Origin: Halothiobacillus sp.
Lineage (GTDB): Bacteria; Pseudomonadota; Gammaproteobacteria; Halothiobacillales; Halothiobacillaceae
DNA length: 64,000 nt
Reading direction: 5' to 3'
NCBI GenBank assembly: GCA_024635755.1
Contig: JAGXIF010000007.1
Location: 1-64,000, forward strand
A model generated the notes under the pieces. It had not been told where the DNA came from. It worked only from the letters and a program-made list of their open reading frames with translations, and made no database searches. Of this stretch, positions 57,330-62,957 are shown one piece after another (within the stretch, counting starts at the first letter, position 1; each line of letters opens with the position of its first letter). A program made the translations under genes and the position numbers.

Positions 57330-58339
57330 GTGTGGACCGCTCGTTCCGCCAGGTTTCTCGCCCCCGCCAGGCCCAACTCGCCGTCGGGCACCACCCAGAG
57401 GGGCATACGGCTCAGGAGGGTAGCGAAGCGGCCCTTGTCGAGAAAACCATTGAGGGTCTCCTCGCGCAAAAAGGGCAGGATATGCCCGGCGATCGCGCCC
57501 GCAATGAACACGCCGCCGAAAGGCAGTGCCTTGAGTGCCAGGTTGCCCGCCTCCGCGCCCAGAATGCGGGCGAACAGTCGGCAGGCGATCTGTGCGCACT
57601 CGTCCTCGCCGTCGCTCGCCATGCGCGTGATCAGGGCATTGCGATCCTCGGCAGCCGCCAGCCGGCGATCGACGTCCGGCGCCGCGCGGCCAAGGTGTTG
57701 CTCGCGGGCGAAGGCATACAATGAGGAAAAGGCATCCCCGCTCAGCAATCGCTCATAGCTGACATGGCCGCCGATCCGGCGGCGCAGGAAGGCCAACAAC
57801 TCGTCCTCGCGGGCGTTGTTGGGGGCGAAATCGCAGTGGCCGCCCTCGCTGGGCATGGGATGAAAGCGCTCGCCGTCGTGGAAGAAAATGGCCTCGCCCA
57901 GGCCGGTACCCGGCGCAATCACCGCCGCGTGTCCGCCCTCGTGGCCGGAGTCCGGGTTGAGTGCGACACGATCGGAAACGGCGCTGGCCATCGCGCCCAG
58001 ACCGACCGCCACCAGGTCATTGACCAACCGCACCGGCACATCGGCCAGGTCCCGGGCTATCTCGACGGTCGAGACAGACCACGGCAGATTGGTCGCTCGA
58101 ACCACCTGTTCGCCAGGCCGACCGGCCACCGGTCCGGCCACGCCGAAAGCCGCCGAGCGGATGGCCGACCAGCCCAGCCCGTCCACGTCTTCCAGTTGCC
58201 GCCGAAACGCCTGCAACAGCTCGACAAACCCGGCGTGATCACGACTCGCCAACTGCCGTTCGAAGCGCGGGATCGTCTCACCCGGACCGTAGACTGCCAA
58301 CCGAGAATGGGTGCCACCGATGTCACCGGCAAGGATCAT
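57326..58339 (-). CDS. glk: Glucokinase
   Basis: 337 residues from ATG 58339, with GGAGC just before it. ROK-unlike bacterial glucokinase: ATP motif MILAGDIGGTHSRLAVYGPG, AFGVAGPVAGRPGEQ, the catalytic Asp in LVNDLVAVGLGAMAS, VIAPGTGLGEAIFF, and sugar-site PMPSEGGHCDFAPNN. It phosphorylates glucose, for example from glycogen breakdown. It overlaps the phosphorylase-kinase-like gene upstream (ATGA) and thiE downstream (ATGA). Confidence 0.95.
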   Translation of the reverse strand: MILAGDIGGTHSRLAVYGPGETIPRFERQLASRDHAGFVELLQAFRRQLEDVDGLGWSAIRSAAFGVAGPVAGRPGEQVVRATNLPWSVSTVEIARDLADVPVRLVNDLVAVGLGAMASAVSDRVALNPDSGHEGGHAAVIAPGTGLGEAIFFHDGERFHPMPSEGGHCDFAPNNAREDELLAFLRRRIGGHVSYERLLSGDAFSSLYAFAREQHLGRAAPDVDRRLAAAEDRNALITRMASDGEDECAQIACRLFARILGAEAGNLALKALPFGGVFIAGAIAGHILPFLREETLNGFLDKGRFATLLSRMPLWVVPDGELGLAGARNLAERAVHT

Positions 58340-61300
58340 TGCTCCACCTCCGTCACTGGGCCCTGTTCCTTGGTGTCGACACCCAGCAACATGTTCAATG
58401 CCTGGCTGATCCACTGCGCGACCTGGTCGGGCGTGGTTCGGTAGAACGCCTGCCAGGCACGGTCCTTGACCTCGTCATAACGCGCCTCGTCCTGCGGATG
58501 CGCGTGCAGCCATGCCAGTCGCACCGCGTGACCGATCAGCACGTCGAGGATCAAGGGCTCGGCGATGTCCAGCGAGGAGTGTCGACGGATGACCTCGATC
58601 AGCGCCACCAGCGCCTCGATGCTCAGCTGGCGATATTCGGGCGCGCCGATACGATTGAGCAGGTGCTCGACCTCCAGGGCGAAGTTGTGCTCGCCGGCAG
58701 TGGTCTGGCTGCGGTAGAGGGCGCTGTCCAACGTGTTCCGCGGTTCGTAGCGATTACCGATCACGACCGCCGGCGTATGTCCCAGCAAACACCACAGACC
58801 GTGATAAAAGGTCTCGGGCAGGCGGCCAACCGCGCCCAGGATCTCGCGCCGATGATACCAGTCGTCCTCGGCGGCATCCGCGCCAACCGCCTCGCGCATC
58901 GCGCCCCTGAGCACGGCGTCCCCTTCCCCTTCCTCCCCGGGCAGTTCCAATGCATCCCGGGGGGCGCCTCGGCGCAGGTGGAGGGCCTCGAGCTTTTCCG
59001 GATGATCACGCCAACCAAGCGCATCGCGCAATTTGTGCCGGATAACGCTGGGAGCCATGCCCACGAGTTCGTCGAGGGCGGCGGCCGGCGCAATCCCTTG
59101 GTCACGCCCGTGCAGGGCGACCAGGATCTGCAGCAGGGGCCCGGTGCGCAACGTGATCACGTCGTCGAACAGGGTCGGCTCGGAGCGTATCCAGGCACCC
59201 AGGTGAATGATCAGCTCCTGAGTGAGTATCCGTTCGCGCGGATCGTCGCCACAAAAGGAGGCGATGCGTTGCAGTATCTCCGCGTTGGAGATCGGTTCGT
59301 CGATCACCGCGTCACGCGTGTAGGACCGCCCCACCGCTACCCGCTTTTGCCGCACGATCAGATCCATCAGGGCCACTTCGAGGAAGGCATCCACCTTGTG
59401 CCCCTGCTCTGCGGCGAGGCGCATCACGCACCAGGCCTGCTGCCGCTGGGCGACACGGAATATCATCGAGAGATGCCCGGCGATCTCGCGGGCATGTCCA
59501 TAGGCATCGGGAAACCGGCGGCCCGCCGCTATGTCGCTCTGCTCCAGGCGCTGCAGCAACGCCAATTGCTCCTCGAGCACCCGCGTTTCGGCAAATGCCG
59601 CCTCCAGGGCCTCCAACGATGGCGATTCGCCCAGGCGTTCGATCAGTTCAGCCGGATCGCCACCGCTTTGCCAGCGTGAGGGATCGACGGTCATGCGCCG
59701 TGCCCAGCCCGGCATCAGGCCGGGCAGTTTCAGGCGTGGGGCCCGGGTGGCCAGGGCATCAATGTGATCGACGTGCACCGGCACGCCTCCCACCTCACCC
59801 TGCCCCAGCTCTTCCCGGCAGAACGCCAGTAGCCGCTCGATCCCTGCCGCCTGCAGCATCCACTCCGACACGAGCACTGTAAACAGCGGCCGGCCGGCCT
59901 GGCGGGCGTTGCGATGCAGGTAGTCGATCGAGGTACGCAGCTCGTGCACCAGCAAGTCGATATCTTGGGTGAGGTAGAAATCCTCGTTCTCGAACAACTG
60001 GGGGATGACCGCCCATTGCCGTCCGTCGGCCTCGACGATCGAGGCAGTCGCCAGCCCCAACACTCGGCGTCGCGGTCGACCACTCAACCCGAGCCGCGGG
60101 TTGGCACCCAGCTGGGTCAGGCTCTCGATCAAGGCACGCGCCGAGGTGACCTGCACGCGAGACTCGCCCAGCACGTCCACCGGCTCGATACCGGCGGCGG
60201 CAAGATAAGCGGCCACCTCCGGCGTTTCCGCGATCATGGCCACCGCCACCGCTGGGGAACGTTGCACCCGGAGGTTCCGCCGCCGACTGAGCGGGTCGAT
60301 GTCGGAGACGTCCACCAGGCGATGGAGCAACAAGCGTCCCACCATCCAGAGGCTCTGTGCCCAGACCAGTGGACGATTCTCGTTGGCCCGCCGTTCGGTC
60401 GAGCCGGCATCGGCGCGCTCTGCCTCGAGATGCTCCGCGGTGACGTAATAGAGCTCGGGCAACAGTGCCTGACCATCCTCCGGGATCGCCAGCACCTTCA
60501 GGCGACGGTCGATCGATTCGGCCATTTGCGCGTCGCCGCGGAAGATCGCATTGATCAACTGGAAGGCGAGGAACAGCGGCCATTCCGATTCGATCCGGGC
60601 AAAGGCCTCCAGCTCCTGGGGCTCGTAATGGAGCTTGGCCTCGTCCTCGATCACGGTTTGGTGACCGTCGCGCAAAAAGCGCTTGTAGCCGTATCGACCG
60701 GCCAGTTTCTGCTGGATGATCGCCTCGATACGCTCGACCATTGCCATATCGTGCACCGCAAACCCTGGAAAACCGATCACCGCCAGCAGGGCCGAATCGA
60801 TCTCCTTGGAGCCGGACTCTCTCGGCAGGATCGCCAGCAGACTCTGCTCGACCCGGACGATGTCATCGGCGACCACGTGGATGCGGCTGCGAGCATCACC
60901 TTCCCCGCCGAACAAATCGAAACCGTCGACTGCCTCGAGTGCGGCCAGCACCAGCCCCAGCGAACTGGCGTTGAGCTCACGCACACCGCGATTGATCTTG
61001 TTGCCTCGCTCCCAGATCCCGTAATCCGGCGTCACGTAGGCGCGAGACAGATACCAGACCAGGTTCTGGACGAAATCCACCTCGTCACGACTTTGCACGA
61101 TCACCAGTCCACTGACGGTCATCTGCACCAGCATCAGCACGAACAGCGAGGTGGCGTCCAGCTGCAGGTGGCCCCATTCGTCATCCCCGACCACGGCGTC
61201 GCCGGTCGCGGTGTCGTATTTCGCGTGCAGGGCATCGGTGGGCGAGAGGCTGTGCTTGAACCGCTCGACCCGGTCGGACTGGCGCATCATGGCGAGCAAC

Positions 61301-61611
61301 ACGCCCCGCATGTTGCGCACCGTGGCCTGCTCGAGCTCGAATGCCCGCGCGGAGGAACGCCCCGTGCGACGAAACGCCATCCCCAGCGACCAGGCACCCA
61401 GAATGCTGTAGACGTTATCCCTCACCCAGGCATCGGTGTAATCGCCGTGGGCGGTCACTGCGGTACTCGCCGGCAACAGGCCAGTCAGGGGGTGCTGGCG
61501 TTCGAGGATGTGCCGGCGGACCTCGTCGTAAAGCGGATCGAGCAGATAGGTCCCCTCATCCGCCGCGGGGGCGCCGGAAAGCCGATGGGGGTATTCGCTG
61601 CCTGCAGTCAT
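58336..61611 (-). CDS. Phosphorylase-kinase alpha/beta-like (GH15-related) protein
   Basis: 1091 residues from ATG 61611. The N-terminal half reads closely like the eukaryotic phosphorylase-kinase alpha subunit: DAWVRDNVYSILGAWSLGMA (60-79), DALHAKYDTATGDAVVGDDE, WGHLQLDATSLFVLMLVQMT, GIWERGNKINRGVRELNASS (about 197-216) and YGYKRFLRDGHQT. This is a GH15-like (alpha/alpha)6 barrel; E200 in IWERG falls near the glucoamylase general acid. The C-terminal half also follows PhK order but ends without a CaaX box. Calmodulin and PhK-gamma partners are absent from bacteria. glk is coupled downstream (ATGA). A role in glycogen or glucan sensing is inference. Confidence 0.9.
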   Translation of the reverse strand: MTAGSEYPHRLSGAPAADEGTYLLDPLYDEVRRHILERQHPLTGLLPASTAVTAHGDYTDAWVRDNVYSILGAWSLGMAFRRTGRSSARAFELEQATVRNMRGVLLAMMRQSDRVERFKHSLSPTDALHAKYDTATGDAVVGDDEWGHLQLDATSLFVLMLVQMTVSGLVIVQSRDEVDFVQNLVWYLSRAYVTPDYGIWERGNKINRGVRELNASSLGLVLAALEAVDGFDLFGGEGDARSRIHVVADDIVRVEQSLLAILPRESGSKEIDSALLAVIGFPGFAVHDMAMVERIEAIIQQKLAGRYGYKRFLRDGHQTVIEDEAKLHYEPQELEAFARIESEWPLFLAFQLINAIFRGDAQMAESIDRRLKVLAIPEDGQALLPELYYVTAEHLEAERADAGSTERRANENRPLVWAQSLWMVGRLLLHRLVDVSDIDPLSRRRNLRVQRSPAVAVAMIAETPEVAAYLAAAGIEPVDVLGESRVQVTSARALIESLTQLGANPRLGLSGRPRRRVLGLATASIVEADGRQWAVIPQLFENEDFYLTQDIDLLVHELRTSIDYLHRNARQAGRPLFTVLVSEWMLQAAGIERLLAFCREELGQGEVGGVPVHVDHIDALATRAPRLKLPGLMPGWARRMTVDPSRWQSGGDPAELIERLGESPSLEALEAAFAETRVLEEQLALLQRLEQSDIAAGRRFPDAYGHAREIAGHLSMIFRVAQRQQAWCVMRLAAEQGHKVDAFLEVALMDLIVRQKRVAVGRSYTRDAVIDEPISNAEILQRIASFCGDDPRERILTQELIIHLGAWIRSEPTLFDDVITLRTGPLLQILVALHGRDQGIAPAAALDELVGMAPSVIRHKLRDALGWRDHPEKLEALHLRRGAPRDALELPGEEGEGDAVLRGAMREAVGADAAEDDWYHRREILGAVGRLPETFYHGLWCLLGHTPAVVIGNRYEPRNTLDSALYRSQTTAGEHNFALEVEHLLNRIGAPEYRQLSIEALVALIEVIRRHSSLDIAEPLILDVLIGHAVRLAWLHAHPQDEARYDEVKDRAWQAFYRTTPDQVAQWISQALNMLLGVDTKEQGPVTEVEQ

Positions 61612-61697
61612 GGTCAATCACCGAATACGGGGTCGAACGAATCGCTCGTGGACCGTCCGAGGAATCACGGACGGGGATATCGCAGAGTATGGGCATT

Positions 61698-61966
61698 AAG
61701 GAAGGTCTGCACCAATCCGATACCGCTCTGCGCGCCTTGAGCCGGGCAGGTGCAAGGCGACCGTCCGCCGTGGAAGGGTGATTCCGTTTCCAAGGACGGC
61801 AACGCAGCAGATCCCCGGCTCAAGGCGCGCCCTGCTGGGCCCGGTGAGCCGTCCGTGCTCGGCGTTGCAACGTCTTGACGTGGCCACCGGCGCGCCGGCG
61901 ACGTCGCGCCTTGATCACGAACGGCTCGCCAGACCAGAATGGTATGGATTCGTGCAGACCTTCCTT
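61698..61966. mobile_element. MITE-like element with long terminal inverted repeats
   Basis: This fills most of the 377-nt gap between the phosphorylase-kinase-like gene and hslO. The ends AAGGAAGGTCTGCAC (61698-61712) and GTGCAGACCTTCCTT (61952-61966) are exact inverted repeats; with a few mismatches the match runs to about 30 bp. Inside, GCGCGCCTTGAGCCGGG (61730-61746) pairs with CCCGGCTCAAGGCGCGC (61814-61830), and CCGGCGCGCCGG (61887-61898) is palindromic. No credible gene lies inside. The ends recall IS5-type termini, so a non-autonomous element is likely; no clean target duplication is seen (TTAA versus TTCA). Confidence 0.6.
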
Positions 61967-61988
61967 CACGGTCGAGGGGACCAGCGAC

Positions 61989-62957
61989 TCAGTGGCGAGT
62001 CGATCCCGGCGTGGCGACGCTGTCACCGGTGAGGAGTTGTTCGACGTCGACTCGATCGAAGCGATAGAGGCTGCCACAGAAATCGCAGCGGATCTCGAGG
62101 AGACCCGGGGTTTCCTCGTTGTTCTCCAGCGAGTCCTCGAGCTCCTCGCGGCCGAGACCGGCCAGCATCGCGCCCACGCCCTCGCGCGAGCAGTCGCAGT
62201 TGAACTGCACCCGCGCCACGTCGTGAATCCGCAAGGCCTCCTGGTGGAACAGGCGGTGCAGCAGCTCGGGGGCGGTGACGGCCAGCATTTCGGCCCGCCC
62301 CTTCTCGCCCACAAGGGTGTCGACCAGCTTGCCGACATGCTCGAACTCGGTTGCCGACCGCCCCGCCTCGGGGACGATGCCGCCGGTCTCCGGCATTTGC
62401 TGGACGAGGATACCGGCGGTGGCTTGCCCGTCGGCGGCCAGCACCAGCCGGGTGGGCAACTGCTCTGACTGCTCGAAATAACCCTCGATGGCGTTCTCCA
62501 AGCCTTCGCCGGCAATCGGCACCAGAGACTGGTAGCGGGTGCCCTCGTCCGGCTCGATGGTCAGCACCAGTTGGCCCTGCCCCATCAGGTCGGGCAGCGC
62601 GCCGCCACTGCCGGCCAGGCGCTCGTCGTCCCATTTGGCCATGCAGCGAAAACGCCGATCCGAGCGCACCTGTACCACCAGCAGGCTTACCGGCCCACGG
62701 CCGGCAAACTGCAGCACCAGCCGCCCCTCGAACTTGAGGCTGGCGACCATAAGCACCGCGCCGGCGACCGCCTGTCCCAGTAGGCTGGCCACCGCGGGTG
62801 GGTAGGCACTGTTCTCGGTCGCCGCCTGCCAGGCCGACTCCAGCCGCAGGGAGACGCCACGCACACGGCCATCCTCGAAGGAAAACCGGAACAACTCGTC
62901 CCCCTGGGGCAGCGCATGCCAGTCGATCGATTCGATATGGGTCGGTTCGTCGCTCAT
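61989..62957 (-). CDS. hslO: Redox-regulated chaperone Hsp33
   Basis: 322 residues. The zinc and redox switch is complete: C254-x-C256 in FNCDCSREG and C291-x2-C294 in RCDFCGSLYRFD. The N-terminal domain has ESIDWHALPQGDELFRFSFE, LLGQAVAGAVLMVASLKFEG, and EGYFEQSEQLPTRLVLAADG. Oxidation releases zinc and switches on holdase activity. It starts 3 nt after gatB and ends 23 nt from the inverted-repeat element. Confidence 0.96.
   Translation of the reverse strand: MSDEPTHIESIDWHALPQGDELFRFSFEDGRVRGVSLRLESAWQAATENSAYPPAVASLLGQAVAGAVLMVASLKFEGRLVLQFAGRGPVSLLVVQVRSDRRFRCMAKWDDERLAGSGGALPDLMGQGQLVLTIEPDEGTRYQSLVPIAGEGLENAIEGYFEQSEQLPTRLVLAADGQATAGILVQQMPETGGIVPEAGRSATEFEHVGKLVDTLVGEKGRAEMLAVTAPELLHRLFHQEALRIHDVARVQFNCDCSREGVGAMLAGLGREELEDSLENNEETPGLLEIRCDFCGSLYRFDRVDVEQLLTGDSVATPGSTRH

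Follow-up and report, generated by a model that had tools for sequence, protein, structure and literature searches.

The intergenic region between hslO and a GH15/phosphorylase-kinase-like gene holds a 265 bp sequence rich in inverted repeats, and the question it raises is whether this is a transposable element or a structured RNA. A first-pass annotation of the window, i.e., the whole 64,000 nt stretch of DNA analysed, had allowed for both, proposing a non-autonomous IS5-like element or an extended RNA structure. The sequence has a GC content of 67% (65% in the host window) and no transposase-sized open reading frame; the ORFs that overlap it in the ORF list are short or enter from neighbouring frames.

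Alignment of copies, together with an empty site in a related genome, places the element at positions 61700-61964 (Table 1), and an nhmmer match over the same positions (E 1.8e-77) is the sole copy within the window. The terminal arms 61698-61718 and 61946-61966 are complementary at 20 of 21 positions. The outer 15 are exact, as first described, but the outermost AA/TT belongs to the target duplication and not to the element. This 4 bp duplication was originally TTAA and now reads TTAA/TTCA. Nested inverted repeats are readily seen, e.g., the 37 nt arms 61730-61766 and 61794-61830. The 10 bp direct repeat CGCGCCTTGA is present at 61731 and 61905, but it is rather a part of the fold, since TCAAGGCGCG at 61820 is the pairing partner of the copy at 61731.

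Table 1. Features of the element and its surroundings, in window positions (strand "." = unstranded)
Feature	Position	Strand	Basis
GH15/phosphorylase-kinase-like gene, downstream of the element	58336..61617	-	ORF list; syntenic with hslO (10 genomes)
CATACT, possible -10 box for the GH15-like gene	61686..61691	-	gap comparison; weak
Left target duplication, TTAA	61696..61699	.	single TTAA in the G008 empty site
Whole copy of the element (very probable MITE)	61700..61964	.	copy alignment, empty site, nhmmer
Left terminal inverted repeat, begins GGAAGGTCTGCACCAAT; outer stem of the fold	61700..61727	+	
Inner arm 1, long imperfect hairpin CGCGCCTTGAGCCGGG / CCCGGCTCAAGGCGCG	61730..61830	.	
Inner arm 2 of the three-way junction	61838..61935	.	
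Right terminal inverted repeat, GGAAGGTCTGCACGAAT on the - strand	61938..61964	-	
Right target duplication, TTCA (differs from TTAA at one position)	61965..61968	.	empty-site comparison
hslO (HSP33 chaperone), 24 bp between its end and the element	61989..62957	-	ORF list; orthologues in 10 of 11 genus genomes

The element is one copy of a dispersed non-coding family in Guyparkeria (Halothiobacillaceae). Its own genome has five full copies of the window's subfamily, with 80-100% identity, plus fragments, and nine of the ten other Guyparkeria genomes have 5-21 each among the matches listed. With a pattern search for the ends only, 5-112 exact ends per genome were found in 10 of 11 Guyparkeria genomes and 3-24 in each of four genomes of the sister genus; a reversed control pattern gave 0-1 matches. 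Family copy number reaches about fifty or more per Guyparkeria genome. In a class-wide search of 369 genomes the exact 18 bp end was confined to Guyparkeria, and the whole element gave no match to plasmids. In all, 126 distinct copies were collected from the two genera. Flanking sequences are unrelated from copy to copy, most copies are intergenic by a crude gene model, and even copies that have diverged strongly, including some in the sister genus, keep a length of 265-266 bp. The family of 265 bases is apparently undescribed, while its kind, treated below, is already known.

The nearest relative, G008, whose hslO is 91% identical, has an exact empty site with one TTAA, GAGTATGGGCATTAACCGTCGAGGGG (...GGGCATTAACCGTCGAGG...). 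Most simply, the insertion in the window is later than the split from this relative. Two further genomes have other family members in the same gap between hslO and the GH15-like gene, in G009 elsewhere in the gap, with a CTAG/CTAG duplication, and in G010 at a different point; thus the gap has received at least three insertions, at separate points in three species (L084, L086 and L093). A single copy conserved with its flanks and no insertion sequence (IS) with such ends, the outcome that the first-pass annotation had held to speak against mobility, is not what was found.

The 4 bp beside each end of 125 copies have the consensus C/T-T-A-G/A (YTAR), which is the reported IS5 target motif (PMC10359306). 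Identical 4 bp duplications flank 25 of these 125 copies, where 7.7 are expected and 1000 shuffles gave a maximum of 17. The ends themselves match those of real IS5-group ISs. In a search with 32 bases of the left end, an IS5 on an Acidovorax plasmid was identical to the element over the first 18 bases. Its ends are GGAAGGTCTGCACGAAT and GGATTCTCTGCACGAAT, with a TTAG/TTAG duplication; its right end matches the element over the core TCTGCACGAATC, and its transposase is of the family NF033581 (IS5) with E 1.6e-97. A genome of the sister genus, G019, contains a complete IS5 with identical 16 bp ends, GGAAGGTCTGATCAAT, and TTAA/TTAA, and ISPa16 has the ends GGAAGGTCTGAAAAAG with CTAA/CTAA. The latter two have GGAAGGTCTGA in common, of which the element carries GGAAGGTCTG. 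A full IS with matching ends, which had been proposed as a check, thus exists in Acidovorax, in the sister genus and as ISPa16, but none was found in the 11 Guyparkeria genomes, of which some assemblies are incomplete. For this reason we infer the mover from IS5s of other genera. An autonomous partner is not strictly required for an IS5-group MITE, because it can be lost.

Candidate partners were also inspected. The DUF772 transposase fragment of G004 (L094), interrupted by an in-frame stop, and a DDE_Tnp_1 IS of G002 (L095) both lack the ends, and the other plasmid matches to the end sequence that were inspected (H2, H5, H10, H11 and H14) revealed no IS with these ends.

Taken from these comparisons, the element is very probably an IS5-group MITE, non-autonomous and moved in trans by an IS5-type transposase. 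Like members of the IS5 group (ISPa16, IS5; NF033581) it has ends beginning GGAAGGTCTG and duplicates a 4 bp YTAR target, but it has no transposase gene, and there is no clear shared sequence beyond the ends with any of the ISs compared. Thus simple internal deletion from any of the ISs examined does not account for it. The proposal of a non-autonomous IS5-like element is in this way upheld by the dispersal in many copies, the precise empty site, the YTAR target and the occurrence of the ends on IS5-group ISs. In the history proposed here, an IS5 transposase would recognise both 17 bp ends (GGAnnnTCTGCACGAAT), and the element would insert at a YTAR site with duplication of 4 bp. One copy would have entered a TTAA in the gap that separates hslO from the GH15-like gene, and would then have decayed slightly, with one mismatch in the terminal inverted repeat and the change of TTAA to TTCA. 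A recurrent intergenic repeat of Guyparkeria is explained by this assignment, and the target motif and ends allow all copies to be annotated.

Other families of bacterial repeats resemble the element in part. REPINs are likewise short, palindromic, intergenic hairpin elements of high copy number, and compensatory changes on both arms have been described for them (PMC3116915). They consist of a pair of inverted REP sequences and are tied to RAYT transposases, and movement of the element by such an IS200-like transposase is most improbable, as a 4 bp YTAR duplication, a 265 bp body with three arms and IS5-like ends do not fit a REPIN. ERIC/IRU and Correia/NEMIS elements, too, lie between genes as short palindromic repeats whose transcripts fold stably, and they are reported to alter mRNA stability or to be cut by RNase (PMC2229807, PMC10969869). 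However, these are about 100-200 bp with TA-type termini, whereas the element is 265 bp and GC-rich, with IS5-type ends and a YTAR target.

Membership in the IS5-group MITEs is well supported, and how the pairing of the element is maintained is the more interesting question. The family stands out in that it is folded over its entire length, with coordinated change of the bases that pair. Folds of both strands show a closing stem formed by the ends and two long arms, i.e., a three-way junction. The structure is strong, with RNA folding z values of -8.6 (+ strand) and -11.7 (- strand), and none of 200 shuffles was as good. Pairs present in the folds of both strands (strand-neutral pairs) were followed in 66 full-length copies. 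They are standard in 96.3% of cells, and shifting the partner by one column lowers pairing to 34-38%. Both sides have changed in 44 of 56 such pairs, a number reached by 0 of 500 shuffles. On a tree, Watson-Crick to Watson-Crick changes on the same branch number 78 against 2.1 expected, a figure that recombination between copies could inflate. Even at positions 4-6 of the ends, which vary freely (AAC, AGG, ACC, ATC, GCC), the two terminal inverted repeats agree in 94 of 126 copies, where 32 are expected.

DNA-level correction, transposition that favours well-paired copies, founder-type recombination and RNA function may each account for this pairing. If the family served first of all as a functional RNA or a hairpin for mRNA processing, kept by the host for its structure and spread incidentally by transposition, this would suit the full-length fold, the paired changes on both sides and on the same branch, the constant length and the mostly intergenic positions. 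RNA selection should, however, favour G.U, and G.U is hardly above A.C, at 63 against 56 cells of the strand-neutral pairs and, relative to the mRNA strand in tandem-gene contexts, at 29 against 27, both being comparisons without a positive control. The strongly covarying fold bears out one side of the extended RNA structure first suggested, but the expected G.U bias is absent. Orthologous copies, which occupy a common site in separate species, have more one-sided than compensated changes, and the window copy is absent from the nearest relative. A search with Rfam covariance models gave no match up to E = 1. A primarily functional RNA is considered unlikely.

As G.U and A.C are equally rare there is no RNA-wobble signature, and the pairing may be kept at the DNA level. 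This could be added to the IS5-group MITE reading. The element would form hairpins or cruciforms, and template switching or arm recombination would copy changes between the arms, and could even flip the element, such that the arms evolve in concert across species and genera. The strand symmetry of the mismatches points this way, with the reservation that the G.U test behind it has no positive control. So do the additional Watson-Crick pair types, of which 40 of 69 are double transversions from the commonest type (e.g., GC to CG) and have no wobble intermediate. The agreement at positions 4-6 is a further argument, although in the Acidovorax IS these positions differ between the two ends. In addition, two Guyparkeria species share an insertion in which the element has exactly opposite orientations (L067:1855-2120 and L128:1505-1770). 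Here the flanks and the ctag/ctgg duplications match, but identity within the element is 46% in the given orientation and rises to 97% once it is flipped. This inversion is a single case; L032/L050, considered as a second flipped pair, have flank matches offset by ~130 bp and are different insertions. Moreover, paired changes could arise without any correction mechanism if dispersed copies recombined or if several founder types were amplified, and the orthologous copies carry mostly uncorrected changes. Maintenance of the pairing at the DNA level is therefore put forward tentatively, as possible but somewhat doubtful. The general question is whether RNA function, transposition or correction through DNA hairpins preserves the folds of bacterial MITEs, and the present family, with its two genera, is deep enough to test it.

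A possible effect of the element on its neighbours was considered from the gap between hslO and the GH15-like gene, which is retained in ten genomes. The start of the GH15-like gene is ~80 bp beyond the other end of the element. The motif of CATACT (AGTATGG) is conserved in 10 of 10 gaps, and the element is 8 bp upstream of CATACT; thus the sequence originally upstream has been displaced. The left end now supplies TTGGTG there, with a spacing of 18 nt. No promoter or terminator was detected in scans of the gap, and both CATACT and TTGGTG are graded weak because a consensus scan misses them. If hslO transcripts read through, a hairpin would follow 24 nt past the hslO stop codon. By analogy with ERIC and Correia elements, for which an action on mRNA from comparable positions is reported (PMC2229807, PMC10969869), the hairpin may be co-transcribed between hslO and the GH15-like gene, and may alter mRNA stability or the GH15 promoter. 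An effect on both genes, as the first-pass annotation had suggested, is plausible.

Other arrangements of the family were also observed. Shorter variants (42-231 bp) that retain these ends are found at L179, L199, L202, L097 and others, and some of them occupy sites at which the full element is present in another species, e.g., L199 against L074/L100. The genome G004 is the sole one of the same genus without any copy, and its genus assignment may merit a check. Adjacent copies of different subfamilies, a few bases apart, are present at L042:2877-3424 and L072:3073-3654. At L027:1229-1766 two copies stand in head-to-tail order and each of the three junctions reads TTAT, an arrangement that looks like insertion of the second copy into the target duplication of the first.
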